DNA of 64,000 bases, taken from assembly GCA_022822745.1 (NCBI GenBank), contig JAJEAO010000102.1:1-64000 (forward strand). The letters run 5' to 3'. Positions 8,728-31,421 of this stretch are shown here, one piece after another (positions within the stretch are counted from its first letter, which is position 1; every line of letters begins with the position of its first letter). Both the position numbers and the translations under genes were made by a program. Origin of the DNA: Acidobacteriota bacterium (GTDB lineage Bacteria > Acidobacteriota > Vicinamibacteria > Marinacidobacterales > Marinacidobacteraceae). The notes beneath the pieces are model-generated. The model was given only the letters and a program-made list of their open reading frames with translations. It made no database searches and was not told where the DNA came from.

Positions 8728-8799
8728 GATGCGGGATTATCCGGCGCGCGCCGAGCCGCTCGTCGGTCGGCGCGGCGGGCGGAATCTCCGGGTCGGGTC

Positions 8800-8869
8800 G
8801 GGACACCGATGCGGCGAGAGCCTCTCGCCGGGGATCCGAGGCCCGTCCGGCGAGACGGACCGGTGTCCC
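8800..8869. ncRNA. Predicted three-way-junction structured element
   Basis: Nested complementary segments are read directly. A 9-bp outer stem (GGGACACCG 8800-8808 with CGGTGTCCC 8861-8869) encloses two hairpins. One is CGGCGAG/CTCGCCG (8812-8818 with 8824-8830, 5-base loop). The other is GTCCG/CGGAC (8845-8849 with 8856-8860, 6-base loop), stacked directly on the outer stem. A 14-base junction GGGATCCGAGGCCC separates them. It folds equally well on either strand. It lies 73 bases upstream of the symporter start on the minus strand and 160 bases upstream of the DUF4062 gene on the plus strand. No known riboswitch class is recognised. The rest of 8728-9029 holds no convincing gene. Confidence 0.4.
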
Positions 8870-9029
8870 CCGCGCCGGACGGCCCTCGTCAGCGGGTAGC
8901 CCGCAACCGGTCAGCGCCACGGCTCCGCGCTCCCATGTCCTTCGCTCCACATTTCTTCCACGCCTCGCCCCGGAGGAGCGGCTGCGGCCTGCGGGCCGCG
9001 CGTGATTCCTGCGAGGACGAGCCGCGCCG

Positions 9030-10524
9030 ATGACTCCCATCCGGATCTTCATCAGCAGCGTCCAGCGCGAGTTCGCGCCGGAGCGGGAGCGGCTCGGCGC
9101 CTACGTGCGGGGCGACCCACTCATGCGGCGCTTCTTCGAGGTGTTTCTCTTCGAGGACGTACCCGCCTCCGACCGTCGCCCGGACGAGGTCTATCTCGAC
9201 GAGGGTCGAGCGCTGCGACATCTATGTCGGGCTGTTCGGGAGAGACTACGGCTTCGAAGACTCGGATGGCGTGTCACCCACCGAGCGCGAGTTCGATCGC
9301 GCCACCGAGCGGGACAAGCATCGGCTCCTGTTCGTGCGTGGTTCCGGCGAAGACCGGCATCCGAAGATGCGCGCGCTCATCGGCAGGGCGCAGGCCGGTC
9401 CGGTGCGGAGGCGGTTCGCCACCTCCGCCGAGCTCGTGGCGGGGCTCTACGCCGCGCTCGTTCAGTACCTGGAGGCGAGGGAACTCCTTCGCCTCGGACC
9501 GTTCGACGCTGCGCCGTGCTCCGGCGCCACGCTCGACGACCTCGACATCGCGGGCATGTATCGCTTCATCCGTATCGCCCGCCGCACGAGGCGGCTGCCC
9601 CTTCCCGAAGAGACGCCGCCCGCTGACCTGCTCCGCCACCTGAACCTGCTGAACCGGGGGCGGCTCACGAACGCCGCCATCCTGCTGTTCGGGAAGTTGC
9701 CACAGCGCTTTCTGATCTCGTCCGAGGTCAAGTGCGCGCATTTCCACGGTACCCATGTCGCAAAGCCAATTTCCGCGTACCAGATCTACCGGGGGACCGT
9801 CTTCGAGCTCGTGGAGCAGGCCGTGGACTTCGTCATGAGCAGGCTCGCCCTCTCGGTGGGGACGAGAGCCGAAACCGCGCAGGCCCCCGCGGCCTACGAA
9901 ATTCCGAAGGAGGTCGTGACGGAGGCCATCGTCAATGCGGTCGCGCACCGGGACTACACCGACAGCAGCAGCGTTCAGGTCATGCTCTTCTCGGACCGGC
10001 TGGAGGTTCTGAACTCCGGGCGCCTGCCCCCGACCCTCACGGTGGAGAAGCTCCGCACCGCGCATCCTTCCGTGCCCGCGAACCCGCTCCTTGCCGAGCC
10101 GATGTACCTGCTCCGCTACATCGAGAAGATGGGGACCGGCACCGTGGACATGATCCGGCGCTGCGTCGAGGCGGGCCTGCCGGAACCGGAGTTCGACGTC
10201 GGAGCCGGATTCCTGACGCGGATCCGGCGCTCCGTCCGCGGAACGCTGCCGGGCGAACGGGGGACTACCCGGAAAACAGGCCAGACTCCAGGCCAGACTC
10301 CCCCGAACACGACCCAGAAACATGGGGACAGTCCCCGGAGCACGGCCCGAGACCGCATCGTGGCGCACCTGAGAGCCGAACCGGGATTGACCCGGAAGGC
10401 GCTCGCGACCCGTGTCGGCCTGACCACCCACGGTGTGAAGTACCACCTCCGCAACCTGAAGGCGGCGGGGGTTCTGCGGCGGGTCGGCTCGGACCGCTCG
10501 GGCCACTGGGAAGTACTGCAGTGA
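9030..10524 (+). pseudogene. DUF4062 + HATPase + winged-helix regulator, frameshifted
   Basis: The reading frame opens at ATG 9030 with a DUF4062 domain (RIFISSVQREFAPERERL, then RRFFEVFLFEDVPASDRR). It loses frame at the G-run 9203-9205: one extra G turns the expected DEVERCDIYVGLFG into DEGRALRHLC. The next frame carries on perfectly (VERCDIYVGLFGRDYGFED) to a stop at 10524. Restoring the frame gives about 497 residues: DUF4062, a linker, a HATPase_c_4-like domain (TEAIVNAVAHRDYTDSSS, IEKMGTGTVDMI) and a C-terminal winged helix (LATRVGLTTHGVKYHL). Related proteins are called ATP-binding transcriptional regulators of the AlbA_2/RecG-like group, here with DUF4062 in place of AlbA_2. A true lesion and a base-calling error are both possible. 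It faces the type III restriction system. Confidence 0.8.
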
Positions 10525-10628
10525 TCGTGGCCGTCGTCCGGTGCGATCCGGGCCGCCAGGCTCGACGATCCACCGGCGCGCGGTCGGTGGCCGGCTCGGA
10601 GAATCGGGCGAGTGCCCCCGAGAAGCCC

Positions 10629-10708
10629 GGTTCAGGAGGTAGCGCTTCCGAACAGGACCCGGTTCAGTCGGTAGCGCTTCCGAACAGGATCCAGTTCAGT
10701 CGGTCCCG
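10629..10708. repeat. 32-bp tandem repeat duplicating the 3' end of res
   Basis: Two adjacent 32-base units (10629-10660 and 10661-10692) differ at 3 positions, and a partial third copy (from 10693) lies inside res. Each contains the reverse complement of the codons for the last residues of Res (LFGSAT) plus a stop. The repeat therefore duplicates the gene's own terminus. A frame that slipped would read a second LNRVLFGSATS ending. The rest of 10525-10628 shows nothing recognisable. Confidence 0.75.
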
Positions 10709-13225
10709 CCACTCGTCCTCGTCCACGACCTCGAAGCGCACGACCTTGTCCCGCATCGCCGGCGCGAAGCGGGCCCAGTCCGTCTTCCGCGCGTGCTCGG
10801 TGCAGATGTCGAAGACGGAGCGCTTGTAGTCCGTGTCCTCGCTCTGCTTCAGGTGGACGCCCTTGGTCTCGACGACGAAGACCTGGTGGAAGCCGTCGTC
10901 CACATCCGGTTCGTCCTCGCGGAGCGTCACGATGAAGTCGGCATAGATCTTCTGCGGCTTCCACGCCTGGACGAAGTAGTCCTTGCGCGCCCGGTTGCGG
11001 TACCAGAAGAAGAGCCGCGCCTGCTGGTCGAGATAGGTCGCGACCTTGTTCTCGAGCCGGTTCAGGTCGTCTTCGAGGGTGATGTCGAACAGGTTGCGCT
11101 GGAAGGGACTGCCGTCCTCGCGGTTCGCCCGCTTCGCCTTCGGCGTTTCGATCGTCTCCGGGAGACGGTTGAAGTCCAGGTCCTCGGTCACGACGAGGAA
11201 CCGCATCGCGCCCGAGTCGAGCAGCTCGCCGAAGACCTGTCGCGAGAGCCGGTCGCGCTCCTTCTCGATCTCCCGGCCGAGCGTCGCGAGGATGAGCGCT
11301 TCGTTCGCAGCGACCCGCTCCGCCGGGTAACGCTCGAGCAGGGACTCGACGGCGCGCCGGACCAGGTCGCGGCCCCGCCACGGGTTGGGCACCTGGTGGA
11401 GCAGATGGTGCGCCGCGAAGAGGTAGTCCACCGGGTCCTCGCCGTCCGCCGACCGGGCGCTCCCGTGGCTGCCGCGGGCCTCGCTGCCGCTCCCGACGAG
11501 CGTCCCGCCATCGAGTCCGAGCTGGATGTGCTGATCCCCCGTCGTCGCTTCGTCCAGACTCAGCTCGGCCACCGCCGCGACATCCACTTCGTCCCATGGC
11601 ACGCGCGAGAGGATGTCCGCCTCGTAGCGGACGAGGCGCCAGCCCCCCTCGTCGCGGATCATGAAGGCGGGGAGCACCAGGTCGTCGGCCGGGGCCTGGA
11701 AGCGGTCCCGTCGGCGCGTCACGAGGGTCGCCGCCGGGCGCGGGGGCCCGCCGTCCGACACGACCCTTCCTTCGAGCCCCTGGAGGCCTTCGAGTCCGAA
11801 ACCCTTCCGCACTTCCTTCAGCACATCGTTCGTGCCACGGCGGTAACAGAAGACGTAGCTCTCATCGAGCCAGGAGACGCCGGTCTTGTGCGCGTAGGGC
11901 TGGCGCAGGATTCGGCCCACGAGCTGGGTGAGGCCGGTTCTGGACGAGGGATTCGCGAGGATGGCGAGCACGTAGGCGAACGGGCAGTCCCAGCCCTCCT
12001 GGAGCGCCTGCTTCGTGATGATGTAGCGAATCGGGCAGTTCCGGGACATCAGGCCGCCGACATCATCCGCTTCCCTGAGTTCGTCCTTGCTGCTCGTCTT
12101 GACCGCGATCTGTTCCCCGGTGACGCCTCGACGCTGCAGCAGGTGCTCCCGGACATCTTCGGCGTGGATCAGGCCGGGTTTCCGCTGGCTCCTGCCGGTC
12201 CTCTCGACCTGGATGACGCAGATCGGTCGGATGTAGGCCCCGGAGTCGGCTTCGTGGCGCTCCGCTTCGGCTTCGAGCCGTTCGCGGTGCGTCACGGCTT
12301 CGAGGAGCGTGTCGCGCCACTCGCCGCTCCGCTGGTTCCGGATGTGGAGGTCGAGCTTGATCATCTCCTCGGCGTTCAGCTCGCGACCGAGGATCTCCAC
12401 GAGGACGTTGGCCTCCTTCGCCGGAGTCGCCGAGAGCTCGACGATCATGCAGGGGTTAAATCCCTCGAGCGTGGCCTTCGCGTTCGCGCTGTAGGCCTTG
12501 TGGCCCTCGTCGAGGACGATGAGCGGCCGCAGGAGGCGTAGCGTGTTTCCCAGCGAGGTCTTGATGATGCGGCCCCAGTGGCCCACCGTCTCCTCGAAGG
12601 TGTCGAGGTTCGGCGTCCGCGCGAGAATCTCAGCGTGGCGTCGGGGCTGGTCCTCGGGCGGGAAGAACCGGTCGTAGCCCCCGCTGTCGCGAAACATCCG
12701 CAGGGTGTCCTTCGTCTGCCGGTTCGCGGACGGGAGCATGAGGAGCAGGACACAGAGGCTCTCCTCGATGTCGCGGGGACCGAAAGGCGTCGTCTTCTCG
12801 AGGATTCGCGTCCGCTGACCCGAGCACAGGTCGAGCTGCTGGCGGTAGGGATGGTCCAGGTCTCGGAGCGCGCGCAGCGTCTGCCGGTAGATCTGTGTCG
12901 TGGGCACGATCCACAGCACCAGGCCGCGACGGCTTCGGCGGAAATGCGAGTTGACGAGGCCGATGACCCGCACCGCGAGCAGCGTCTTGCCGCCCCCGGT
13001 CGGGATCTTGAGGCAGAACGAAGGGAGGCGGTCGCCCACGGCGTTCTTCCGCTCGTGGTAGGGGCGGCCGACCGCGGTCTTCTCCCACGCCCGCCGGACC
13101 CAGTCGAACCCGAACTCGGGATCCAGCCGCCGCGCCTCCCGCTCTTTCTCTCGCCACTTCGAAAGTTGCTCGACGAACTCCCGGACCGTCGCCAGCGTCC
13201 GCTGCTGGTACTCCTTGAGGATCAA
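10664..13225 (-). CDS. res: Type III restriction enzyme, Res subunit (helicase/endonuclease)
   Basis: About 853 residues. An SF2 helicase core has motif I KIPTGGGKT at residues 73-81, a DEGHKAYS motif II at about 238, SATPAKEAN (motif III) and the C-terminal LVGRILRQPYAHKTG (motif VI). A PD-(D/E)XK nuclease near the C-terminus reads YADFIVTLRED ... VFVVETKG. This is the normal Res architecture; with Mod it cleaves DNA after ATP-driven contact between two unmodified sites. The start is chosen as TTG 13225, which overlaps the mod stop as TTGA; GTG 13234 is an alternative. The 3' end sits in a 32-bp tandem repeat. The gene appears intact, in an operon mod-res. Confidence 0.93.
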   Translation of the reverse strand: MILKEYQQRTLATVREFVEQLSKWREKEREARRLDPEFGFDWVRRAWEKTAVGRPYHERKNAVGDRLPSFCLKIPTGGGKTLLAVRVIGLVNSHFRRSRRGLVLWIVPTTQIYRQTLRALRDLDHPYRQQLDLCSGQRTRILEKTTPFGPRDIEESLCVLLLMLPSANRQTKDTLRMFRDSGGYDRFFPPEDQPRRHAEILARTPNLDTFEETVGHWGRIIKTSLGNTLRLLRPLIVLDEGHKAYSANAKATLEGFNPCMIVELSATPAKEANVLVEILGRELNAEEMIKLDLHIRNQRSGEWRDTLLEAVTHRERLEAEAERHEADSGAYIRPICVIQVERTGRSQRKPGLIHAEDVREHLLQRRGVTGEQIAVKTSSKDELREADDVGGLMSRNCPIRYIITKQALQEGWDCPFAYVLAILANPSSRTGLTQLVGRILRQPYAHKTGVSWLDESYVFCYRRGTNDVLKEVRKGFGLEGLQGLEGRVVSDGGPPRPAATLVTRRRDRFQAPADDLVLPAFMIRDEGGWRLVRYEADILSRVPWDEVDVAAVAELSLDEATTGDQHIQLGLDGGTLVGSGSEARGSHGSARSADGEDPVDYLFAAHHLLHQVPNPWRGRDLVRRAVESLLERYPAERVAANEALILATLGREIEKERDRLSRQVFGELLDSGAMRFLVVTEDLDFNRLPETIETPKAKRANREDGSPFQRNLFDITLEDDLNRLENKVATYLDQQARLFFWYRNRARKDYFVQAWKPQKIYADFIVTLREDEPDVDDGFHQVFVVETKGVHLKQSEDTDYKRSVFDICTEHARKTDWARFAPAMRDKVVRFEVVDEDEWRDRLNWILFGSATD

Positions 13226-14841
13226 GACTCCCACCGGTCCACGGCTTCGTAGATCTGGAAGGGGAGTTGCTGGAAGTCGATCCGGTACTGGTGGAGGAAG
13301 TCGCTGTCGAGATACTTCGCCGGGGCGAAGACGAGTCTTCGGCGCTCCCAATCCGGCAGCGCCTTGGCGTCCTTCAGCTTCAGCGCCAGATTCTTGAGCC
13401 GTTCCACATCGCGCTCGTAGAACAGGAAGACGTCGTGGGACCGGGTGCGTCCGATCCAGCCGATCTCGCGATCGGTCTCGCTCGGGTCGAACTCCTGCCC
13501 GGTGGCGGTGAAGAAGATGTAGGCGGCGAGACTGTCCCACGCGGGCAGAGCCGAGCCGTCGAGCAGGGATTCCTGGCGCATGGGGCGTCCCAGCTCGAAG
13601 TAACTGAACGTTCCTCCGAGACCCGCCTTGAGGGTTTCGTCCTTCGCGCCCGGGACGCCCGCGATGACGCGCCGGACTCGCTCGGCGGTGATCGTGTCGG
13701 CGTAGTCCTCGCACTCGATGAGGACGAACCGCCGGTTGCCGCCGTCAGCCTGATTCTGGGCGAGTACGGCGTGGGCCGTCGTCCCCGAACCGGCGAAGGA
13801 ATCGAGGACGATCGAGTCAGCATCGGTGGCGAGAAGGATCATCCGCTGAATCAGCTCGAACGGCTTGGTCGTGAAGGTCGGCGTATCATCGGGAAAGAGC
13901 TGCAGCAGCGTCTTCCTCGCACTCTGGGTGTGACCGACTTCTCGGTAGGGCCAGATGGTCTTCGGCACCAGGCCCGGCTTGACCTCCGAGAGAAATCGCT
14001 TGACGGAGGGAGTCTGGTTTCCGTCACGCCCCCACCACACCCGGTTGTCTCGATCAAGTGCCAGGAAACTGTCCTTGGAGACGGACCAGAATCGTCCCGC
14101 TGGCGGTCCACCGATTTTCCGTCCACTCGGACATGTGATCGAGTATGTTCCTCTGCTGTATGGGTTCCGTGCAGAAAGGTCGCTGGACTTCCAAGGGCCA
14201 CGTGGATCGCTGTCCGGGTTGTTGTACCTGGAGTCCGCCTCCTTCGTCCGGGGAAGGAGGTTTCTCTTGAAGGACTCTCTCTGTTTCGTGTAAGCGACGA
14301 TGAAGTCGTGGCTCTCCGAGAAGTACTTCGCGCTGCTCTTCGGCGAGTACACCTTCTCCCAGACGATCGTCGCCACGAAGTTGTCCTCGCCGAACACTTC
14401 GTCCATGAGAGAGCGCAGATGATGCACCTCGTTGTCGTCGATCGATACGAAGATGGCGCCGTCCTCCCTGAGGAGCTCCCGAAGCAGCTTGAGTCGGGGC
14501 AGCATCATGCAGCACCACTTGTCGTGGCGGGTCAGATCCTCGCGATCCACGACCTTGCCGAGCCAATCCTGCATCAGGGGCGAGTTCACGTTGTCGTTGT
14601 AGGCCCAGCCCTCGTTCCCGGTGTTGTAGGGCGGATCAATATAGATGCACTTCACCTTGCCGCGGTGCGTGGGTAGCAGCGCCTTCAGGGCGGCGAGGTT
14701 GTCGCCGTGGAGGATCAGGTTGTCGTGGAGGCTCGCCTTCTCGCTGAGCCCCTTCTCCCGCACCGGCGTCAGCTCGTGGAAGGGCACCGCGCGGTGATGG
14801 TTCTCGACGAAGACCCTTCCCTTGAACTGCAGTTGTGGCAC
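13222..14841 (-). CDS. mod: Type III DNA methyltransferase, Mod subunit
   Basis: A 539-residue beta-class amino-methyltransferase. The catalytic motif IV DPPYN is at about residues 70-74, followed by an EGWAYND segment. The AdoMet motif I FAGSGTTAHAV is at about 348-358, so the order is that of Mod/beta enzymes (N6-adenine). The central variable region (about 120-330) would be the target recognition domain. The start is GTG 14841 with a strong GGGGAGG ribosome site 4-5 bases upstream; the frame open further upstream is a shadow of the SAM synthetase gene. The stop overlaps the res start by 4 bases, giving coupled translation. The 130-base gap to the upstream gene has no clear terminator, so mod-res could be co-transcribed with the MoxR-VWA-MetK operon. 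The target site cannot be read. Confidence 0.93.
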   Translation of the reverse strand: MPQLQFKGRVFVENHHRAVPFHELTPVREKGLSEKASLHDNLILHGDNLAALKALLPTHRGKVKCIYIDPPYNTGNEGWAYNDNVNSPLMQDWLGKVVDREDLTRHDKWCCMMLPRLKLLRELLREDGAIFVSIDDNEVHHLRSLMDEVFGEDNFVATIVWEKVYSPKSSAKYFSESHDFIVAYTKQRESFKRNLLPRTKEADSRYNNPDSDPRGPWKSSDLSARNPYSRGTYSITCPSGRKIGGPPAGRFWSVSKDSFLALDRDNRVWWGRDGNQTPSVKRFLSEVKPGLVPKTIWPYREVGHTQSARKTLLQLFPDDTPTFTTKPFELIQRMILLATDADSIVLDSFAGSGTTAHAVLAQNQADGGNRRFVLIECEDYADTITAERVRRVIAGVPGAKDETLKAGLGGTFSYFELGRPMRQESLLDGSALPAWDSLAAYIFFTATGQEFDPSETDREIGWIGRTRSHDVFLFYERDVERLKNLALKLKDAKALPDWERRRLVFAPAKYLDSDFLHQYRIDFQQLPFQIYEAVDRWES

Positions 14842-14971
14842 AGAACCTCCCCTCGTCAGCCGGAACCCGGAGGGAGTATGCCGCAGGGGATGGTCGGAAG
14901 GCGGCGCACCGAAGCGCCTCTGCGGAAGTGCGGAGCCGCCGTCCCGCCCGCGAGGCTCTCCGCCGCGCCGA

Positions 14972-16177
14972 TCAGGAGGCTCTGGGCAGCGCGTCCGCCG
15001 CGGACGCCGGGGGAGCGGGCGCCTCCCACGGCAGGGCCGGGTCGGTGAAGTGGCCGTGCCGGGCCACTTCGACGAGATCGGCGATGCCGGTCCAGTGGTC
15101 TCCCGAGGCGTCGAGGGTTCGGTCCGAGAAGGCTCCTCCGGGACCGAAGATGCGGATCGCATGTCCAGAGCGCGGATCCCGTGCCGAAACCAGCCGCCCG
15201 GCCCGGTCGCCGGGCATCCAGCACATCGAAACCAGAACCTCGCGAGGGGGATCGGGCTCGCCGTCCGGCGTCGGGAGGTGTCTGGCGAGGTGCTTCGCCA
15301 CCCGGCGGGCGTGGAGCGCTCCGGCGCGGTCCACCTGGTAGAGATCCTTGCCGGAGAGCGCGCCGCCCCCGATCGGCGCCCGGGGACCGTAGGCGTCCAC
15401 GACCAGTTTCTTGCCGGAGAGGCCGTTGTCCCCGTAGGGGCCACCCCGGGAGAAGTCCCCGGCGGCGTTGACGCGAACCGACTCCGGAAGCTCGGCCGAG
15501 AGCCGAGGGAAGCCCCGCTGCAGGCGCTCCATCTCCTCCTGGAGCGCCAGCCGCACGCGCCGCTGCAGCGCCACCGGGTTGCCGCGCTCCCGCTGCTCGA
15601 CGCAGCAGCTCAGCCTCCGCAGGCGGAAACGCGGGGGAGCCAGGGAGCCGGAACCCTCCTCCAGCACGACCAGCAGCTTTCCGTCGGGACCGAGGCGCAG
15701 ATCGGGGGCTTCGCGCCAGAGTCGGGCGAGCCGCCGGCCGAGGCGATTCGCCAGCCAGTGTTCCACCGGCAGGAAGTTCGTTTCCGGGATGTCGGTCGCG
15801 TAGCCCGTCACCACGCTCTGGTCGCAAGCCCGCCCGCGGGCAGTGCGCTGGCGCGGGGTGAGTTCCGATCGGATCAGATCGGTGTGGATGCGCAGGTTGC
15901 CGGGATCGGGGCGGCATGGGGGACCGGACCCGGGGGGACCGAAGCCGGCGGAGGCGAAGGTGGCCCGGACGATGTCCTCGACGGGGATCTCCGCAGCGCC
16001 GTCTCCGGCGAGCACTCCGGTCACGAAAACCAGATCGCGGTGGAGGCCGACCTCCACCGCGACGTGGGCACGGGGGTCGCGCCGGGTGGCGCGGTCCACG
16101 ATCGCGTCGGCGATGGCGTCCGCGAGCTTGTCGGGATGGGCCGGGAAGACGAATTCGGCAGCGAAGTGACGTGTCAT
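14972..16177 (-). CDS. Divergent S-adenosylmethionine synthetase
   Basis: 401 residues, the usual length of bacterial MetK, which makes AdoMet from ATP and methionine. Recognisable landmarks are HPDKLADAIADAI (residues 14-26), RACDQSVVTGYAT where MetK has GDQG, the NAAGDFSRGGPYGDNGLSGKK stretch with VVDAYG, and GGGALSGKD at about 269-277. The first residues and the central domain are far from standard MetK, so this looks like a specialised paralogue. Its ATG overlaps the TGA of the metallopeptidase/VWA gene (ATGA, 16174-16177), making it the last gene of a four-gene operon. The type III methyltransferase begins 130 bases downstream. A dedicated AdoMet supply or a modified product is inferred only from this context. 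It might also be the only MetK of the organism; the window cannot tell. Confidence 0.85.
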   Translation of the reverse strand: MTRHFAAEFVFPAHPDKLADAIADAIVDRATRRDPRAHVAVEVGLHRDLVFVTGVLAGDGAAEIPVEDIVRATFASAGFGPPGSGPPCRPDPGNLRIHTDLIRSELTPRQRTARGRACDQSVVTGYATDIPETNFLPVEHWLANRLGRRLARLWREAPDLRLGPDGKLLVVLEEGSGSLAPPRFRLRRLSCCVEQRERGNPVALQRRVRLALQEEMERLQRGFPRLSAELPESVRVNAAGDFSRGGPYGDNGLSGKKLVVDAYGPRAPIGGGALSGKDLYQVDRAGALHARRVAKHLARHLPTPDGEPDPPREVLVSMCWMPGDRAGRLVSARDPRSGHAIRIFGPGGAFSDRTLDASGDHWTGIADLVEVARHGHFTDPALPWEAPAPPASAADALPRAS

Positions 16178-17703
16178 TCGGAGGACTCGGTGCGCAGGAG
16201 GGTGTGATGGTCGGCAACATCCTTCAGACCCGTGTCGCGCCAACGCGAGCCTTCGGGGAGGGCGACGCCGAGAACGGCTCGGGCCAGAGTCTCCCGATCG
16301 GCGCCCCGGGGCTCGCCCACATGGTGACAGGCGAGGATGCAAGCACTGCGGATCCCGTGGCGGCGCATGTGCCTCGCTACGCACGAGATGTCGTGGCCCG
16401 TGTCGGTGCGCACGAGACCGGCCCTCATATCGGCGAACGAGACATCGCGCACTTCGCTCGAGAACAGATGGACGCGCGGGTGGACCCAGGCGCGGCAGTC
16501 CAGAACCGCCCGGTAGAACGGCCCCACCCACGGATGCATGCAGCCCGAGACATCGAGGTAGAGGTGGACCCGCTCCCCGGCGCGCACCGGGCTGCGAACG
16601 GGAAACGGCACGCTTCGGAGGAGCGGGTTCACTCCGAGAGCGCCGAGGACGACCGAGCGGCGGTCGGGCTTCGGCAGCGGCGCCAGGACTTCCTGCTCCT
16701 CCGGGAGAGACCGCACCAGGGTCGCCCCCGTTTCGCGGTCGGCCACCCGCTCGATGAGGCGGCGAAGGCGGGCCCGGTTGTTCGGTTCCCGGCGAGGACG
16801 GCGGATCTCGGTCGGGAGCGCGCGGCCGTCCCCGCGGCCGAAGAGTGGCTGCTCACGAATTTCTTCCAGAATCGTCGCCACTTCACCCGGGATCGTCCCC
16901 CCGGCTGCGAGCGACCCTTCCCCATCCATCGGGGAGCGGGGCAAACCGTCTCCTTCAACGGGGATGCTGTCCCCGGTTGCGGGCGACTCCGCGCCGGTTG
17001 CGGCGGGCAGACCCCGGTCGCCGGGAGCCTCCGACTCGTGGTTGCCGAGCAGGAGAATCCCGTCAAAGGGCATCGCCGGCAGCAGCGTCGCGATCTCGTC
17101 CGCCGTGGCGCCCGGACCGAGATAGAGGTTGAGGTAGATGGAAGTTGCCCTCGCGGCGACGCGGTCGCACTCCGATCCCAGAGCGGCCTTCATGGCCTCC
17201 CTGATGTTCGTGGCCCGGCTCGCGGTCGCGGTCCAGGAACCGAAGTCGATGTTGCGGTTCCGGTCGAAAACCCCGCTGGCGTCCCGCCACTGGCCGGGCC
17301 AGACCGGCGGAGGGCGGAGCAGGCAGTGCGGGAACTTCCACGGATAGAAGGATGTGAGCAATCCGGTGAATTCGGGCCTCGGAAAGCGGCGAGCGAGCAG
17401 GGAGTTGATGACGCAATCGAGCGCGAAGTTGTCGCGAGGGTCGGCGAAACGCCTCCTCGTGTGCCCGAGAGCGACATGGTGGATCTCGTGCATCAGGAGC
17501 ATGAACAGACGCCCGGGAGTTGCCGCGTGACGTTCGACGAACTCGGGGTTCAGCCGCAGGCGCACACGCTCGAAGCCCTCGATGGCGGCTGTGGGCACCT
17601 CGGTGGTCTCGACGATCTCGACGAAGCGAAGCATGCAGGCCGTCTCGGGCATTCCGGGGGGAATGCCGTCGAACAGCCGATCCGCGATGCTGCGTTCTCT
17701 CAT
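16174..17703 (-). CDS. Putative metallopeptidase with VWA-like domain (DUF2201 type)
   Basis: 509 residues. The N-terminal domain carries the zinc-binding HEIHH at residues 72-76 in LMHEIHHVALGH, as in the DUF2201 N-terminal putative metallopeptidase. A low-complexity Gly/Pro/Asp linker runs from about 215 to 270. The C-terminal domain (about 375 onward) has YLDVSGCM, a degenerate MIDAS-like DxSxS of VWA-like folds (Ser-Gly-Cys in place of Ser-x-Ser). Such proteins are usually paired with MoxR-type AAA ATPases, as here (18249-19835), and the pairs are thought to act as chaperones or complex remodelers. The ATG at 17703 overlaps the upstream stop (ATGA), and the stop overlaps the MetK-like start (ATGA). 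The substrate is unknown. Confidence 0.82.
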   Translation of the reverse strand: MRERSIADRLFDGIPPGMPETACMLRFVEIVETTEVPTAAIEGFERVRLRLNPEFVERHAATPGRLFMLLMHEIHHVALGHTRRRFADPRDNFALDCVINSLLARRFPRPEFTGLLTSFYPWKFPHCLLRPPPVWPGQWRDASGVFDRNRNIDFGSWTATASRATNIREAMKAALGSECDRVAARATSIYLNLYLGPGATADEIATLLPAMPFDGILLLGNHESEAPGDRGLPAATGAESPATGDSIPVEGDGLPRSPMDGEGSLAAGGTIPGEVATILEEIREQPLFGRGDGRALPTEIRRPRREPNNRARLRRLIERVADRETGATLVRSLPEEQEVLAPLPKPDRRSVVLGALGVNPLLRSVPFPVRSPVRAGERVHLYLDVSGCMHPWVGPFYRAVLDCRAWVHPRVHLFSSEVRDVSFADMRAGLVRTDTGHDISCVARHMRRHGIRSACILACHHVGEPRGADRETLARAVLGVALPEGSRWRDTGLKDVADHHTLLRTESSE

Positions 17704-18248
17704 CGCGACGAAAGGGGCGGAGGAATCCACAGCGTGACCTTGCGCACCCGTCGGAGCCGCTCCAGACGCGGCTCCCTGGAGCGCAGCCAGACGTCCCTGG
17801 TGGACTGGGTGATCACCGCCAGCGCCGCGAGCGCGATCGAAGCGCGCGCCGCGTCCGGAGAGCCTCCCGCGGCGACCCGCACCGCGTCCGGGTCGTACAC
17901 CGTCTCCACATCCAGCCTGCGGCCCCGCTTCGGCGGAATCACCGGGCACGCCCCGGGCAGGAGACGCTTTGTCCCGCGCACCGGGACCGCCAGCTCGGCG
18001 GCCCGGTGTCGGATCGCGGCGACGAGGGTCATCTCGGCGGACTCCCCGGGTTGGGCGAAGCGCTCTCCGGCAGCGCCCAGCCCCTCCAGGATCCGGGACG
18101 CAGCGATGTGCTTGCGTGGCCACTGGCGCGGCGCCCGGAAGGCCACGACTTCTCCGAGTTCCACGCCGCTGAACTCCCACCAGAAGCGGTCCCCCGAAGA
18201 CAACCCGGAGTAGGTAACGCGTCGTTCGCTCGGTCTCGGCGGGCCCAT
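17700..18248 (-). CDS. Conserved-context hypothetical protein, 182 aa
   Basis: I do not recognise this protein. It is 182 residues, basic, with no signal peptide or clear membrane helix. A hydrophobic Ala-rich helix lies at about 130-150 (ARASIALAALAVITQS), followed by an Arg-rich tail ending in LRRVRKVTLWIPPPLSSR. It begins at ATG 18248, immediately after the TAG of the MoxR-like gene (no spacer). It ends in an ATGA overlap with the metallopeptidase/VWA gene, so it is almost certainly translated with them. Position between a MoxR ATPase and its VWA partner suggests an adaptor or substrate of the pair; that is inference. Confidence 0.7.
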   Translation of the reverse strand: MGPPRPSERRVTYSGLSSGDRFWWEFSGVELGEVVAFRAPRQWPRKHIAASRILEGLGAAGERFAQPGESAEMTLVAAIRHRAAELAVPVRGTKRLLPGACPVIPPKRGRRLDVETVYDPDAVRVAAGGSPDAARASIALAALAVITQSTRDVWLRSREPRLERLRRVRKVTLWIPPPLSSR

Positions 18249-19835
18249 CTATGCGGTCCTTCGGGCAGGAAGGCGTCGGCGCTCCCGAGAGGTCGCGATG
18301 TCCTCGGGCGACGCCTTCTCCGTCGGCCCAAGTACCCGTTCCGCCGACTTCCAGGATGCGAGGAAGCCCGGGGCGGACCCCTCCAGATTTCCGTCCCGGC
18401 ACCTCCGGGCAAGGGAATTCGCGATGAGACGATCTCGGGGGTCGCGCGGGTCGAGCCCGGCGAGAGCGTCCTTGACTCCGCGCCATCGGGACACCGGAAT
18501 CTCGATTCCGGTCTTCGGACGCAGAATCGCGTCGCGACACAGGACCGCGGCTTCGCCGGCGACGGAGGCGTGGAGTCGGGAGGCGGCTGCGCTCTCGAAG
18601 AGGTGCACGGCGATGGCTTCCCGGGCTCCCGGAGGGGCCTCCGCCAGGGCCTCCGAAACCGTCGTGGTGAACTCGGGGCCGCCCAGCTCCGGCTCCGCGA
18701 TCGCCCGCGCCACTCGTTTCACCGGATCGAGGCAGGCGAGGAGGGCGCCGGCCGGGGTCGTCTCTTGCGCGCCGATCCAGGCCTCCTTGTGGGCCAGCCG
18801 AAGGATGCTGACGGGAACGGGCGCGCCCAGCGCCGCCTGCGGGAGGCCGAATCGCACCGCCTTGAACGCCGACTGCTCGAGGCGGCTGGCGGGGTCGTAC
18901 CGCGAGTCGGCCGCCCGGATCGCGAAGATGGCGCGGCGCAGCATGCCGCTGCGCCGGGGACTCAGGACGGTCTTCCGACGCAGGAGGAGCGAGACCAGAG
19001 TGGCCACATAGGAGGAGACCAGAGCATCCCGGCGGCGACGGATGACCTGGTACCGCTCGCGCAGCGCGAGGACTTCCCGGCGAACGGCGTCCCCCGCTTC
19101 CGGAGCGACCGATGCCTCCTCGGCGCCGACGATCGCCAACCGGTCCGCTTCCGAGTAGTCACCCCAACCCGGCATGGTCACGACGAAGGCGAAGCGGTCC
19201 GCCAGCGCCGCGTCGAGCGGCCGGGTGCCCACGTAGGGATCGTCGTCCTCGCCCTCGTCATCCCGCGGCGGGTTCATCGCCGCCCAGCGGTAGCGCAGAT
19301 CGGTGAGCCGAATCCCCTGCGCGCGCTTCTCGTGGATGATCGGGAACAGGCGGTTCGCCATGTCCGGACGGCACCGGTTGATCTCGTCGAAGATCACCGC
19401 TCCCGCCCCCCAGATCGAGGCCGGGGTCTCTACGTACTGGAGCTGACCGTCCTCTCTCGGCAGCGGAAAGCCGAGCAGGTCGTCGAAGTTCAGCAGGCTG
19501 GCGTTGTAGTGGCGCGACAACAGCCCGAGCGCCTCGCCGAGTCGGGTCAGGAGCAGACTCTTCCCGGTGCCATGCGGACCGATGAGGAGGAGCGGCTCCT
19601 CGGTCACGAGCGCCGCGAGCAGGACGGGCTCGATCTCGTCGAGGCCGAAGAGTCCCAGCCGCCGAAGCAGCGGCTTCCACGGACGGGGTCTGGCGCTGGC
19701 AACGGGCGCCGGTGGGGCCTTCGAGGGCAAGCGGACGATCCTCCCCGGCGTGGCCGGTTCTGCTCCGGGGAGGCGGGCTCCGCCGGATTCGTACTGTTTG
19801 CCCGGGAGCGAACTCCCGAACCGCATCCCCCGCAA
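18249..19835 (-). CDS. MoxR-like AAA+ ATPase
   Basis: 528 residues. Walker A GPHGTGKS is at 86-93 and Walker B VIFDEINR at about 147-154. AMNPP (sensor 1 region) and ADRFAFVVTMPGW follow, the typical MoxR/AAA_5 arrangement. The C-terminal half (about 270-500) is helical with an Arg-rich tail. The likely start is TTG 19835 (AGGTGG 7 bases upstream) or ATG 19826. It is the first gene of the run MoxR, 182-aa protein, metallopeptidase/VWA, MetK-like. All junctions are zero-gap or 4-base overlaps. MoxR ATPases with VWA partners remodel protein complexes; the target here is unknown. The 198 bases between it and the TraB-like gene (19836-20033) hold no clear gene. Confidence 0.88.
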   Translation of the reverse strand: MRGMRFGSSLPGKQYESGGARLPGAEPATPGRIVRLPSKAPPAPVASARPRPWKPLLRRLGLFGLDEIEPVLLAALVTEEPLLLIGPHGTGKSLLLTRLGEALGLLSRHYNASLLNFDDLLGFPLPREDGQLQYVETPASIWGAGAVIFDEINRCRPDMANRLFPIIHEKRAQGIRLTDLRYRWAAMNPPRDDEGEDDDPYVGTRPLDAALADRFAFVVTMPGWGDYSEADRLAIVGAEEASVAPEAGDAVRREVLALRERYQVIRRRRDALVSSYVATLVSLLLRRKTVLSPRRSGMLRRAIFAIRAADSRYDPASRLEQSAFKAVRFGLPQAALGAPVPVSILRLAHKEAWIGAQETTPAGALLACLDPVKRVARAIAEPELGGPEFTTTVSEALAEAPPGAREAIAVHLFESAAASRLHASVAGEAAVLCRDAILRPKTGIEIPVSRWRGVKDALAGLDPRDPRDRLIANSLARRCRDGNLEGSAPGFLASWKSAERVLGPTEKASPEDIATSRERRRLPARRTA

Positions 19836-20033
19836 GGGGAGCCACCTTCGCCCGAATCCGAAAGACCCAAGAGGCAGGTTGGCGAGAGCCCCCGAAGGAG
19901 CTCTTCTCAGGATGCTGCGGGCACTCTACCAGACGTTTCGGCCGTCAGGACGGCGCGCTGCGGGGGTCCGCGTCAGGATCTGACACATCGTGAGCTGGCG
20001 GGCGCGCGGCTGCGAGGGAGCCGGTCCGGGGCG

Positions 20034-21242
20034 TTACCCGAAGGCGCCGGAGAGGAGCCGGCCGCCACCGACGAAGGTCCCGATGGCGCTCCCGATCGTG
20101 GGGAAGAGCAGCGCCAGCGCGATCCGCAGCGCCCGGTTGCCGAACCAGCGCCGGACGACGAGGGCGTCCTTCTTGAGCGCCGTGAGTTCGAAGACCCGCG
20201 GCGGGCGGACCCACGCCTGCACGAAGGCAGTCACATACCCGGCTCCGAGCACCGGGGTGAGGCTGGTGAAGGGCGCCGAGATCAGGGCGGCGAGGATGGT
20301 CAGCGGATGCGCGAGCGCCACCGCCGCTCCGATCGCCGCGGGCACCGAGTTCACCAGAACCCAGAACAGCGCGCCATCGGCCGCCGCCTCGGGGCCGCGG
20401 GTGACGAAGGTCCACGCCAGCGCCCCCAGGATGACCACCGGGATCGCGATGCCCACGGCCTTCCCGACCCATCCCGGCGGCGGGATCGCGGCCAGCGGGG
20501 CCACATCTTCCGGTTCGTCCCGGAGAAGCGTCTCTTCCACCCCGTCGAGGTGGCCGGCGCCGATCACGACGACGACGCGACCGGGGATCCGGCGCACCTC
20601 CTCGGCGATCCAGGCGTCGCGCTCGTCAATCACGACCTCCTTCAGCATCGGGAACTCCTCGCCGAGCTCCGCCACCAGGCGGGAGACCACGTCCCCGGAG
20701 AGCAGCTCGCGGAGGTCCTCCTCGGTCGGCTCGTCCCCGCCGCCCCCCTCGATGCCCCCGGCGAGCAGCTTCATCCGGGACCAGAATCCCGTCCTCCGCC
20801 AGACGCGCAGGAGCGTCGTCCGGACCGGGCGGTCCACCAGATGGATCTTCGCCCCCTGCTCCCGGGCGGCGAGCGCCGCTTCGCGCATCTCGGCGCCCGG
20901 CTCCACGCCGAGGCGCAGCCCCATCTTCGCCTGCCACGCCCCGAGCGCCAGCCCGGCGAGGAGGGGCAGCAGCTTGCGCTCCCGCACGACCTGCTTCAGG
21001 TCGAGCTTCGCGATCGCCTCCGGATCCATCAGCGCCTCGAACCGGCCCTCGTCCAGCTCGAGAGCGACTCCGTCCGGCCGTTCCGCCGCGATCGTCTCGC
21101 GCACCAGGTCGAGCGAATCGGGGGAGATGTGGGCGGTCCCCACGAGGACGACTTCGCGGGTGTCGGGCCACTCCGGACGCGAAAGCCGCCGGACCAGCCG
21201 CGCCCGCTGCGCGGGGGCGGAAGGTTGAGGTTCCGTGGTCAT
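20034..21242 (-). CDS. TraB family membrane protein
   Basis: 402 residues of the TraB/PrgY group. The N-terminal soluble domain begins with the family signature VGTAHIS (34-40), followed by ALELDEGRFEAL and a second VVIGAGHLDG motif at about 240. The C-terminal third has four to five hydrophobic segments, giving a membrane-anchored protein. Family members are named after enterococcal pheromone shutdown, but the biochemical role, possibly metalloprotease-like, is unsettled. ATG 21242 is the start. The stop of the upstream PIG-L gene is only 24 bases away, so the two are probably co-transcribed. Length is normal and no lesion is seen. Confidence 0.88.
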   Translation of the reverse strand: MTTEPQPSAPAQRARLVRRLSRPEWPDTREVVLVGTAHISPDSLDLVRETIAAERPDGVALELDEGRFEALMDPEAIAKLDLKQVVRERKLLPLLAGLALGAWQAKMGLRLGVEPGAEMREAALAAREQGAKIHLVDRPVRTTLLRVWRRTGFWSRMKLLAGGIEGGGGDEPTEEDLRELLSGDVVSRLVAELGEEFPMLKEVVIDERDAWIAEEVRRIPGRVVVVIGAGHLDGVEETLLRDEPEDVAPLAAIPPPGWVGKAVGIAIPVVILGALAWTFVTRGPEAAADGALFWVLVNSVPAAIGAAVALAHPLTILAALISAPFTSLTPVLGAGYVTAFVQAWVRPPRVFELTALKKDALVVRRWFGNRALRIALALLFPTIGSAIGTFVGGGRLLSGAFG

Positions 21243-26450: not shown

Positions 26451-27775
26451 AGATCTCGGTTCTCGGGGGCGGCGGGCTGCGGACGCCTCTGCTCGCTCCC
26501 GCGCTCGCTGCGCGGGCGGGAGCAGCGGAGCTGGCGCTCTTCGATCCGGACCGGCGGCGGCTGGAGCGGATCGCCGCCGTGGCCCGGGCCGCCGCGCCCC
26601 GGCTCTCGATCTCCGAAACCGGGAGCGCCGCCGAGGCCGTTCGCGGGAGTCGGTTCGTCATCGCCGCGATCCGCGCCGGCGGACAGGAGGCGCGCGGCGC
26701 GGACGAGCGGACCTGCATGGAGGCGGGCGCCCTCGGCCAGGAGACAGTCGGGGCGGCGGGCGCGGCGCTCGCCTTTCGCAACGTCCCGGCGATGGTGAAG
26801 CTCGCCCGGGTCGTGGAGCGGGAGGCGCCGGAGGCATGCCTCGTGAACTACACGAACCCGGTGGGCATGGTGTGCGATGCGCTCGCGCAGGAGAGCGCGG
26901 TGGACGGGGTCGGGATCTGCGACACCCCCGCGGAGCTCGCCGAGCGCGCCGCGTCGCTGCTCTACCTCGACCCGGAAGCCGTGGTCCCCGGTTGGTCCGG
27001 CGTGAACCACTGCGGCTGGCTCACCGGCCTCTACGAGAGGGAGCGGGATCCCGACGACCCCTTCCCTCCGGTGGACCACCTGCCGGACCTCTTCCGCGAC
27101 CCGGAGCGCCCGCGCCGCCTCCACCGCGGCGACCTGTTCCCGGTGGAGGCCATGGTCCCGGCGGTCCCGTCGGAGTACGTCTTCTTCCACGGCTGGCCGG
27201 AGCGGGCCCTCGAGCGAATGCGCGGCGCCGCGGCCACGCGCGGCGAAGCGATCCTCGCGATGGAAGCGCGCCTCTTCGCCGGTCTCGACGCGGCCGAAAC
27301 CCCCGCCGGGAAACTGTCCGCCTACCGGAGCGTCCTCGCCGAGCGGGACGCCACCTACATGCAGGTCGAAGGCGGCGAAGGCGGCAGCGACCACCGGCCG
27401 CCGCCCGGACTCTCGGGCTACGACCGGATCGGCCTCGAGGTGATCCGCGCTCGGCTCGGCATCGAGCCCCGGACCATCGTGGTGAATGTCCCGAACCGCA
27501 CCTCCGCGGGAGGACCGGCTGTTCCCGAGCTCCCGGTCACGGACATCGTGGAGACCCCGGCGGAGATGGATGCGGGGGGTGTCCGTCCCCTCCCCCAGCG
27601 CCCCCTCCCCCGGGACGCGGGGCGGCTCCTCCGCCGGGTGCGCGCGGCCGAACGCGAGATCGCGAAGGCGGCGCTCACCGGGGACGCGGGAGCTGCCGCG
27701 GCGGCGCTCCGCGAACACCCCGCCGGGGGTCCGGCCGCCGCCGAGGTGTTCCCCCGACTCCGACTCAGCGGCTGA
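26447..27775 (+). CDS. Glycoside hydrolase family 4 (6-phospho-beta-glucosidase type)
   Basis: 442 residues. It opens with a Rossmann NAD site (KISVLGGGGLRTP), as all GH4 enzymes do. It contains VNYTNPVGMV (about 140), the GICDTP segment where most members have GxCNxP, and GVNHCGWL with the metal-site His. GH4 uses NAD and a divalent metal to cleave 6-phospho-glycosides by redox-elimination. The frame has no ATG or GTG near the Rossmann motif; CTG at 26447, inside the kinase stop, follows GGAGAGG by 6 bases and is my preferred start. Partnered with a PfkB kinase. The Asn-to-Asp change in the CN motif is an oddity. Confidence 0.88.
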   Translation: MKISVLGGGGLRTPLLAPALAARAGAAELALFDPDRRRLERIAAVARAAAPRLSISETGSAAEAVRGSRFVIAAIRAGGQEARGADERTCMEAGALGQETVGAAGAALAFRNVPAMVKLARVVEREAPEACLVNYTNPVGMVCDALAQESAVDGVGICDTPAELAERAASLLYLDPEAVVPGWSGVNHCGWLTGLYERERDPDDPFPPVDHLPDLFRDPERPRRLHRGDLFPVEAMVPAVPSEYVFFHGWPERALERMRGAAATRGEAILAMEARLFAGLDAAETPAGKLSAYRSVLAERDATYMQVEGGEGGSDHRPPPGLSGYDRIGLEVIRARLGIEPRTIVVNVPNRTSAGGPAVPELPVTDIVETPAEMDAGGVRPLPQRPLPRDAGRLLRRVRAAEREIAKAALTGDAGAAAAALREHPAGGPAAAEVFPRLRLSG

Positions 27776-27909
27776 CGCCCGACCGGGGCGGCGCGACCCG
27801 CCGCCGCCCGGTCCTCCCGCCTCTGCCGGCGCTCCATCCCCCGGCCCGGCACGGAGCGCCCCTCTATGGAGACCGGCACCGCAATGGAACCCGCCTGTGG
27901 CCGCGAATT

Positions 27910-27927
27910 GCCACTCTGGAGAGTGGC
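27910..27927. repeat. Short palindromic hairpin in intergenic region
   Basis: GCCACTCT-GG-AGAGTGGC is an 8-bp perfect inverted repeat in the 223-base gap between the GH4 gene and the convergent 521-residue nuclease-like gene. It could act as a bidirectional hairpin terminator or a REP-like element; there is no T-tract. The rest of 27776-27998 is Pro/Gly-rich GC sequence without a supported gene. Confidence 0.4.
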
Positions 27928-27998
27928 GCTCCATACTGCCGGCGCGCCGGGGCAGTTCTCCCGGTGGGGCTCTCGCCCGGCGCGCAACCTCCCGGCAG

Positions 27999-29564
27999 TC
28001 AGGAACGCTCGGCCCGGACGGCGAGCAGGTTGCGCTCGCTGCGGCCGAACACGGCGCCGACCAGGTGGATCGGCTCGCCGCGGCTGCGGTACTTCTCGGC
28101 GTAACCCCGGTCCCGGATCTGCCTCATCGCCCGCGCCATGGCCATGTCCGCGTCCTCCCCGTCCTCCGCCATCTTGAACTCGAAGACGAACACCTGTCCC
28201 GCGTGGAGCAACACCATGTCGGCCCGCCCGCGATGCGAGGTCTCCTCCACGCGAACCTCCAGGCCGATCGCCTGGAAGCAGGCGTAGAGCATCCCGGCGT
28301 ACCACGCCTCGTAGCGGGCCAGCTCCGGACGGCTCTGCCACTGACAGGGCACTCCGGCGAAGAAGCTCTGCAGTCGATCCGCGAAGCCGCCGAAGTCGTT
28401 CTCCGCCAGCATCCGGCACAGCACCCGACCGTCGCTCGAACCATCCGCACGGCCAGCGCTGACGTGCTGCAACAGACTGTTGTTCAGGCTGTAGCGAACC
28501 TCCAGGTTCGGGTAATCGAGCCGGAACAGAGTCTGCGGTCCGAACCTCTCTTCGGCCGCGATCGTGAGGTAGCCGGTCTGGAACAGCAGGGCGTCCGTCC
28601 GCATGTCGTCCACATCGAAATTCGAGAGCAAGTCCGCATCCGAGACGCGGTTCTCGAGGTCCAGCGTGTTCATGCGCCGATCCATCATCAGCGGGAACAC
28701 GAAGCTGGGGGAACCCGTCCGGTACCAGTAGGGCTGGAGCTCCCGGCTGTCAAAGTGGAGCAGGATATCGAAGGGGTTGTATACCTTCTCTCGACCGCGC
28801 CAGTGGTAGCCGATGTACCAGCGCCGGATCTCGTCCCGGTCGAGACCGGGCAACTCGGCCTCGAAGGTCTCGTCGAGGTCTCCGTCCGTGTAGCCGCAGA
28901 GCGTGGCGTAACTGGGATCGAGACTGATGTCCCACAGGTTGTTCAGGCCCGAGAACAGGCTCACCTTCGAGAACATGCTGATCCCGGTCAAGAACACGAA
29001 GCGGACATGCCGAGCGGCCCCCTTGATGACGCCGTAGAAACCCCGCAGAGCGTCCCGATGCGCCTTGGCCAGCTCCGGATCCTCGAGGGTGTCCAGGATC
29101 GGCTTGTCGTATTCATCCACGAGGACGACAACCTGTTTTCCAGTGCTTCGATGCATCTTCTCCAACAAGCCTCGCAGTCGCGCGGCCCCCTTCGAGGAAG
29201 ACGAGTGTGCCCCAAGACCTGCCCCCCGCTCGATGGTCTCCAGTTGACTGCGGATGTCCTCCTCGAGGTGTCCCGATCTCGTGTACTCCCCGTCGAAGCC
29301 CAGGCGCAGGACCGGCCAGGAGTCGTCCCAGTTCCAGCGCTCGTGGATGGCGAGCCCTCGGAAGAGCGGCTCGTTCCCGGCGAACAGCTCGTGGAGCGTG
29401 TCGAGCAGGAGGCTCTTGCCGAAGCGGCGGGGACGAGACAGGAAGTAGTAGCGGCCCCGACTCACGAGCTGGTGGATCAAGGCCGTCTTGTCCACGTAGT
29501 AGTAGCCCTCCTCCCGAATCGTGCGGAACGACTGGATGCCGATGGGAAGAAGGCGCGAGTGCAT
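27999..29564 (-). CDS. AAA-ATPase-like / PD-(D/E)XK nuclease-fold protein (DUF1703 type), copy 1
   Basis: 521 residues. The N-terminal AAA-ATPase-like domain begins with the family opening LPIGIQSFRTIREEGYYYVDKT. Its P-loop is SRPRRFGKSLLLD (about 43-55), with VVVLVDEYDKPIL as Walker B-like segment at about 145. The C-terminal PD-(D/E)XK-like nuclease core reads GRADMVLLHAGQVFVFEFKM, with Asp and Glu-x-Lys in place. Function is unknown; such proteins are variable accessory genes often seen in multiple copies. A second copy of exactly the same length lies at 34766-36331 on the other strand. ATG 29564 is the start. The catalytic residues look intact. Confidence 0.9.
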   Translation of the reverse strand: MHSRLLPIGIQSFRTIREEGYYYVDKTALIHQLVSRGRYYFLSRPRRFGKSLLLDTLHELFAGNEPLFRGLAIHERWNWDDSWPVLRLGFDGEYTRSGHLEEDIRSQLETIERGAGLGAHSSSSKGAARLRGLLEKMHRSTGKQVVVLVDEYDKPILDTLEDPELAKAHRDALRGFYGVIKGAARHVRFVFLTGISMFSKVSLFSGLNNLWDISLDPSYATLCGYTDGDLDETFEAELPGLDRDEIRRWYIGYHWRGREKVYNPFDILLHFDSRELQPYWYRTGSPSFVFPLMMDRRMNTLDLENRVSDADLLSNFDVDDMRTDALLFQTGYLTIAAEERFGPQTLFRLDYPNLEVRYSLNNSLLQHVSAGRADGSSDGRVLCRMLAENDFGGFADRLQSFFAGVPCQWQSRPELARYEAWYAGMLYACFQAIGLEVRVEETSHRGRADMVLLHAGQVFVFEFKMAEDGEDADMAMARAMRQIRDRGYAEKYRSRGEPIHLVGAVFGRSERNLLAVRAERS

Positions 29565-29760
29565 GGGGAGGAGACGGTGGAGCCCCGATCATAGCCGGGG
29601 CCCTACTTCGTTCGACGGGACGAGCTGCGCAGATTCAAGCAGGGAGATGGGATCCGGCACAGATGCTCCCGGCTCCGGGTCCCACCCCCTTGTCGGGGCG
29701 TCAGGCACTACTCTCCACCACCTCGGAACCCGATGCTGCCACGCGCAGCGAGACCGATCG

Positions 29761-29777
29761 AGAATGTGACACATTCT
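29761..29777. promoter_or_regulatory. Perfect 17-bp palindrome upstream of lipoprotein metalloprotease
   Basis: AGAATGTG-A-CACATTCT is an exact inverted repeat with 8-base arms, 31 bases upstream of the ATG at 29809. It is AT-richer than its surroundings and looks like a dimeric repressor or activator site. It lies between the divergently oriented nuclease-like gene (start 29564) and the protease gene. The regulator is unknown. No gene is seen in 29565-29808. Confidence 0.45.
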
Positions 29778-29808
29778 GGAACCTCGCGCCGGTATTCTCC
29801 TGCTCATC

Positions 29809-31041: not shown

Positions 31042-31052
31042 CGGGGAGAGCT

Positions 31053-31160
31053 TCAGCGCAGGGATGGCATCCGTCGCTCAGAGACACAGTGGCTGCCTCG
31101 CCGACGAATACACCGGAAGCCGTGGCTCTCGAGCACGCGGATGACCTCGCGCACTCTCAT
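31053..31160 (-). pseudogene. HicA toxin remnant
   Basis: The first 24 codons from ATG 31160 read MRVREVIRVLESHGFRCIRR followed by RGSH, a close match to the start of HicA mRNA interferases including the catalytic His of RGSH. After that the sequence leaves the family and stops at 31053, about half the normal 60-80 residues. No HicB antitoxin is recognisable beside it. It is best read as a truncated relic. The stretch 31161-31421 shows no other supported gene. Confidence 0.6.
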
Positions 31161-31421
31161 CGCGAGGTCTGAGGATCGCCGGGGACGCAGGAGCCGCTCG
31201 CGCGGATTCCGAGACCGGCTTCTCCGTCGAGCCGTAGCAGAGAGAGGACGACGACCATGTTCGCCCGAACGAGCCGCCAACGCGAGAGCCAGCGGGGTCT
31301 CGTTTCGGCGCGACACACCGGCGAGTTTGCCTCGCCTGGACTCGGTGGGGCGGCAGACCGCGCCGACGACCCCACTCCCATTCGCTACGATCCGTGGGTG
31401 TGCAGGAAGGAGGATCGAGAC

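Follow-up and report, generated by a model that had tools for sequence, protein, structure and literature searches.

MetK, the S-adenosylmethionine (AdoMet) synthetase, is regarded as a strictly conserved housekeeping enzyme. The stretch of DNA analyzed here, 64,000 nucleotides of an Acidobacteriota contig (hereafter the window), encodes a divergent member of this family (MetK2) together with a MoxR-type ATPase and a putative metallopeptidase, next to a type III restriction-modification (R-M) system, and the question which the locus raises is what a MetK-like enzyme would do in such company. The initial annotation had suggested a local supply of AdoMet to the neighboring mod gene or an AdoMet-derived signal coupled to protein remodeling.

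A translationally coupled four-gene cassette

A check of open reading frames (ORFs) placed four translationally coupled genes on the minus strand at window positions 14972-19835:

18249..19835, minus strand: MoxR-type AAA+ ATPase, 528 aa from a TTG start (AAA_5, E=1.2e-8; bpMoxR below cut-off)
17700..18248, minus strand: small partner protein, 182 aa, with no match in Pfam, PADLOC or NCBIfam
16174..17703, minus strand: metallopeptidase (HExxH...H, DUF2201_N) with a C-terminal VWA-like domain (MPT-VWA), 509 aa, DUF2201_N above gathering score
14972..16177, minus strand: MetK2, divergent methionine adenosyltransferase (MAT)-fold enzyme, 401 aa, S-AdoMet_synt N and C domains above cut-offs, M domain below

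The ORFs, coordinates and junctions were all confirmed as initially annotated, with one zero-gap junction, where the TAG stop of the MoxR gene is followed directly by the small gene's ATG, and two ATGA overlaps, one between the small gene and MPT-VWA and one between MPT-VWA and MetK2. The GTG start of the type III methyltransferase gene mod (14841) lies 130 bases past the MetK2 stop (14972). When the four cassette proteins were compared with PADLOC no confident match was obtained.

Conservation, distribution and inheritance of the cassette

All loci retrieved with MetK relatives were scanned with profiles of the four cassette proteins, high-scoring MetK2 loci were counted and gene order was scored wherever the contig spanned the region. 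Some 30 loci, drawn from seven phyla or more, have MoxR, small ORF, MPT-VWA and MetK2 in this order on a single strand, a recurrence far beyond chance. The arrangement is thus not unique to this genome, and uniqueness was the outcome on which the initial annotation had proposed to abandon its reading. The carriers, by record title, belong to Acidobacteriota, Pseudomonadota, Planctomycetota, Gemmatimonadota, Chloroflexota, Neomarinimicrobiota, Elusimicrobiota and Verrucomicrobiota, titles which can be wrong for metagenome bins. Overlaps of the ATGA/GTGA type occur at the MoxR, MPT and MetK2 stops in most of the approximately 30 loci, and all-against-all BLASTP of the flanking ORFs revealed no further gene common to the flanks.

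Within the phylum the MPT-VWA family is rare and patchy, being present in 15 of 396 genomes including that of the window; in one of the 15 (L195) the MPT gene is frameshifted and MoxR is present, but MetK2 is not. The MPT-VWA gene was matched in two pieces at L192:2140-3723 and at L195:6614-7920; in L195 the pieces are in two frames and MetK2 does not follow, which suggests a decayed or split copy. The window MPT-VWA protein used alone as a query gave no match against the genome contigs, while an alignment of MetK2 did find relatives. Searches of plasmid, phage and IMG/VR sequences yielded no copy of the cassette, matches being at most 37% identical and the 17 viral loci lacking an MPT-VWA homologue.

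Trees of MoxR, MPT-VWA and MetK2 from 22 loci shared 10-12 of 19 splits, as against 0.1-0.2 expected by chance, and a deep split into two clades, A and B, was common to all three trees; the cassette is inherited as a unit. The window copy falls in clade B with those of Pseudomonadota, Planctomycetota, Bryobacteraceae and Gemmatimonadota while the other carriers of the same class which were placed on the tree fall in clade A, and this points to horizontal transfer. In the one close pair compared (L144/L145) dN/dS was 0.09-0.22 for all four genes, and in this pair the four genes are therefore under purifying selection.

Features of the MoxR, small and MPT-VWA proteins

The window MoxR protein contains the Walker A motif GPHGTGKS and the Walker B motif VIFDEINR, and its start may lie further in than the TTG listed above. 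The MoxR family profile matched every complete cassette, with GTGK and DEI-R invariant. In 25 of the 25 loci which span the interval between the MoxR and MPT genes this was filled by an ORF of 136-195 aa. An AF2 model of a clade B small protein was of the alpha/beta type with medium confidence (pLDDT 72) and gave no fold match in PDB. The small proteins of clade A are well conserved and share the motif N-x-G-G-P near the N-terminus, and many of those from clade B have H-N-M-S-A-P-P or H-M-G-G-P at a similar place. Homology between the two groups was not supported by profile-profile comparison (probability 3%), and so position is the only feature which they can be said with confidence to have in common.

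All 24 MPT-VWA members contained DUF2201_N; VWA_CoxE was matched in 16 of them and DUF2201 in 14, and residues H72, E73, H76 and H81 (HExxH and a third His) were invariant in the 24. All 24 had the same DUF2201_N-VWA architecture without variable effector domains, and no effector swapping of the kind typical of conflict systems was seen. In the window protein the zinc motif is intact (HEIHHVALGH) and the MIDAS is degenerate, with DVSGCM, and ACHH in place of TDG, where other aligned members have DxSGS (DVSGS) and TDG. Among the members aligned the MIDAS was degenerate in the window copy only, and the VWA domain of this protein may either function independently of metal or be undergoing drift. 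The MPT-VWA profile had no match among PDB sequences.

MetK2 retains the ATP half of the MAT active site

A separate canonical metK was found in the window genome (G000:C84:7960-9054) which is 36% identical to MetK2, and most other cassette carriers also have one. MetK2 is therefore an additional copy, as the initial annotation had supposed, and not the sole housekeeping enzyme. The phylogeny called for at that stage placed MetK2 in one clade apart from 19 canonical MetK with branch support of 100/99. The second MetK copies of other genomes of the class (L024-L031) were considered as MetK2 relatives and rejected, as their neighborhoods do not contain the cassette and L026, the one copy examined over its whole length, has the canonical motifs. 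On a contig titled as Elusimicrobia a canonical metK (L083:3320-4459) lies directly upstream of the cassette so that the two types of MetK are neighbors. In two related metagenome-assembled genomes (MAGs) with MetK2, G112 (L145) and G118 (L144), searches for a canonical metK and for an archaeal-type MAT found neither; G112 also lacks a conserved neighbor of metK, of which G118 has only a fragment, and this makes an assembly gap the likely, though unproven, cause.

The AF2 model of MetK2 had the full MAT fold (pLDDT 86; Foldseek TM ~0.75 to MAT structures, E=6e-25). In E. coli numbering, H14, D16, E42, D118, Q119, D163, K165, D238, K245, K265 and D271 are kept in all 30 MetK2 sequences, and these eleven positions of the ATP, triphosphate and metal site are invariant across phyla. 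The methionine-binding residue E55 was absent from all 30, with Arg in its place in 16 sequences and Gly in 11; Q98 was lost from 29 and S99 from 28, while E55 and Q98 were kept in each of the 19 canonical controls. The ATP half of the site is thus kept and the methionine half rebuilt. In human MAT2A E55 and Q98 correspond to Glu70 and Gln113, which bind the main chain of methionine, and D238 corresponds to Asp258, which also contacts its amino group (PMC6850014). The Ser114Ala variant of the human enzyme is left with 2.5% activity and Gln113Ala keeps 76% (PMC6850014), and since the latter substitution alone is so mild the loss of Q98 is weak evidence for an altered acceptor. The case for such an acceptor is built on E55 and on the rebuilt gating loop, and as the alignment of that loop is uncertain E55 is its firmest point. 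Retention of Asp238 in 30 of 30 MetK2 counts against it. With the loss of residues which hold methionine, MetK2 probably makes something other than S-adenosylmethionine.

MetK2 could instead have lost catalysis altogether and serve as an inactive or regulatory subunit of a MoxR-VWA-peptidase complex, a sensor which binds ATP or triphosphate and forms no product. Loss of the methionine site in all 30 sequences, a score of 147 bits where the NCBIfam metK equivalog cut-off is 309, and the constant encoding of MetK2 with a remodeling complex would all agree with such a role, but invariance of eleven ATP, metal and triphosphate positions across phyla is unusual for a pseudoenzyme and the dN/dS of MetK2 was 0.14. 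We consider a sensor of this kind improbable.

Genomic setting and the type III R-M system

To place the cassette in its genomic setting the window was compared by blastn with five genomes of the same family (L215-L219). In these, positions corresponding to 8.73-8.75 kb and 20.04-20.07 kb of the window adjoin within a few hundred bases, and the block which lies between them in the window is therefore extra:

8746..20043, no strand assigned: accessory block of ~11.3 kb (DUF4062/HATPase-HTH gene, type III R-M and cassette)
13222..14841, minus strand: type III DNA methyltransferase (Mod; PADLOC MTase_III, E=8.7e-171), in the inserted block and outside the conserved cassette
10664..13714, minus strand: type III restriction subunit (Res; PADLOC REase_III, E=1.7e-158, and Pfam ResIII), in the inserted block and outside the cassette
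9030-10524 (9.0-10.5 kb), two overlapping frames: DUF4062 and HATPase_c_4/HTH gene

The 5' end of the Res ORF overlaps Mod and the true Res start is therefore inside the ORF. The DUF4062 and HATPase_c_4/HTH domains being in two overlapping frames, that gene is probably frameshifted or split. Just beyond the end of res a 32-bp unit is tandemly repeated (10626-10689). A second stretch which is missing from the relatives (27750-31500) carries a gene with AAA-ATPase_like and PDDEXK_9 domains at 27999-29564. The five relatives contain no close Mod homologue and no MetK2. The 11.3-kb block looks like a defence-type island, a reading with which its content and insertion agree but which they do not prove. 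Pooled PADLOC and Pfam scans of the flanks of the other cassettes gave a mixed picture, with defence genes (type IV REase, AbiEii, Mza-like, mad2-like) in only some flanks, among many genes of ordinary function.

A metabolic role has to be weighed against this setting. If the cassette were a module for enzyme maturation, comparable to NorQ/NorD or RavA/ViaA, MoxR and VWA would remodel a single dedicated client enzyme, the peptidase would trim it and MetK2 would add an adenosyl-derived group as it matures. MoxR-VWA pairs are known for metal insertion and enzyme remodeling (PMC9976466, PMC13036017) and the constant architecture of the cassette, free of effector swapping, would fit, but the flanks hold no conserved client gene, the distribution is that of a patchy, multi-phylum accessory system and in the window genome the cassette was inserted along with R-M. 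We regard a maturation module as no better than an outside candidate, on a par with the sensor.

The position of the cassette 130 bp from an R-M system which needs AdoMet is also the starting point for the idea that AdoMet is still the product of MetK2, which would provide a dedicated and differently regulated supply or a reserve able to withstand phage attack on the metabolism of AdoMet. The MAT fold and catalytic residues are kept, Asp238 is kept, and in the two MAGs noted above no other MetK was seen. On the other side, E55, Q98 and S99 are replaced almost universally, a canonical metK is present in the window genome and in most carriers, and no methyltransferase is conserved beside the cassette, and we judge this the least probable of the three alternatives. 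As to the proposed supply of AdoMet to mod in particular, Mod adjoins the cassette only here and the methionine-binding residues are lost, which makes it unlikely, and this part of the initial interpretation was given up, leaving an adenosyl-type product or signal as a candidate. The suggested link to R-M survived to the extent that the inserted block contains the R-M genes as well as the cassette; the Mod neighborhood itself is not conserved. All-against-all BLASTP found no Mod homologue in the flanks of any other cassette, and the cassette is accordingly not an accessory part of the type III R-M system.

Proposed mechanism

The cassette is well supported as an accessory system of four genes, complete in itself and spread horizontally, whose chemistry and role in defence we infer. 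Our preferred reading, which we hold tentatively and at somewhat less than an even balance, is a MoxR-VWA-metallopeptidase system equipped with a neofunctionalized MAT-fold adenosyltransferase which acts on an acceptor other than methionine, with a likely role in defence or stress. MetK2 would still transfer the adenosyl group of ATP with release of PPi and Pi, and the acceptor in place of free methionine would be a signaling small molecule or a partner protein, modified at one of its residues. By analogy with other MoxR-VWA modules, the MoxR ring and the VWA domain would gate the fused zinc peptidase, and the product of MetK2 or the modified small protein could be the trigger or the restraint of that peptidase. 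The biological role would most likely be defence against invaders or a response to stress. A bolder version of this reading, rather unlikely on present evidence, is that the cassette represents a new class of prokaryotic system for immunity or stress, where an enzyme of the MAT fold which has ceased to use methionine adenosylates a new acceptor (a small-molecule second messenger or the small partner protein) and so controls a MoxR/VWA-gated zinc peptidase; if true, it would be the first case of ATP-to-adenosyl chemistry of the MAT fold in signaling or protein modification.

Comparison with known systems

A full-text literature search, which covered few subscription journals and excluded bioRxiv, found no description of a MoxR/VWA and MetK operon, in agreement with the initial statement that no system with this gene set had been described. 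In a search for DUF2201 together with MoxR, the term DUF2201 was absent from all 30 papers listed. The third cassette gene is nevertheless a member of the DUF2201 putative metallopeptidase/VWA-like family (PF13203/PF09967), with 24 of 24 sequences above detection. Automatic annotation is likely to label MetK2 as "methionine adenosyltransferase" and the system is thus easily overlooked in databases.

MetK2 resembles MetK (TIGR01034; E. coli structures 7ll3 and 1fug) in its three-domain fold and in its ATP, triphosphate and metal residues, and differs from the canonical enzyme in the loss of E55, Q98 and S99, the rebuilt gating loop, its separate clade and a score below the curated cut-off. A whole MetK clade which keeps the ATP chemistry and drops methionine recognition, and which is always encoded beside a peptidase and a remodeling ATPase, suggests a new reaction of adenosyl transfer.

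As in NorQ/NorD, RavA/ViaA and CbbQ/CbbO, a MoxR protein is paired with a VWA partner and would be expected to remodel a client (PMC9976466, PMC13036017, PMC3893208). Unlike those pairs, the cassette has an N-terminal zinc-peptidase domain fused to the VWA domain and a MetK-fold enzyme, and has no client gene nearby. The closer likeness is to the MoxR-vWA-centric ternary conflict systems, of which four types have been published, VMAP, iSTAND, FtsH and beta-propeller, in a paper which makes no mention of metK or SAM synthetase (PMC7159879). The cassette shares with them a MoxR AAA+ protein and a vWA protein with putative peptidase activity, coupled genes and a patchy spread over several phyla. 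The Walker motifs expected of the MoxR component are present, and the vWA MIDAS (DxSxS...T...D) is present in the other aligned members and degenerate in the window copy. It differs in that none of the four proteins gave a Pfam match to a VMAP, STAND, FtsH or beta-propeller component (bpMoxR being below cut-off) and in that its effector is constant, not variable, and it adds two partners new to MoxR-vWA systems, the small protein and the MAT-fold enzyme. The cassette would extend the MoxR-vWA kind by a type with a nucleotide-chemistry partner, and there is a real chance that it is a new class.
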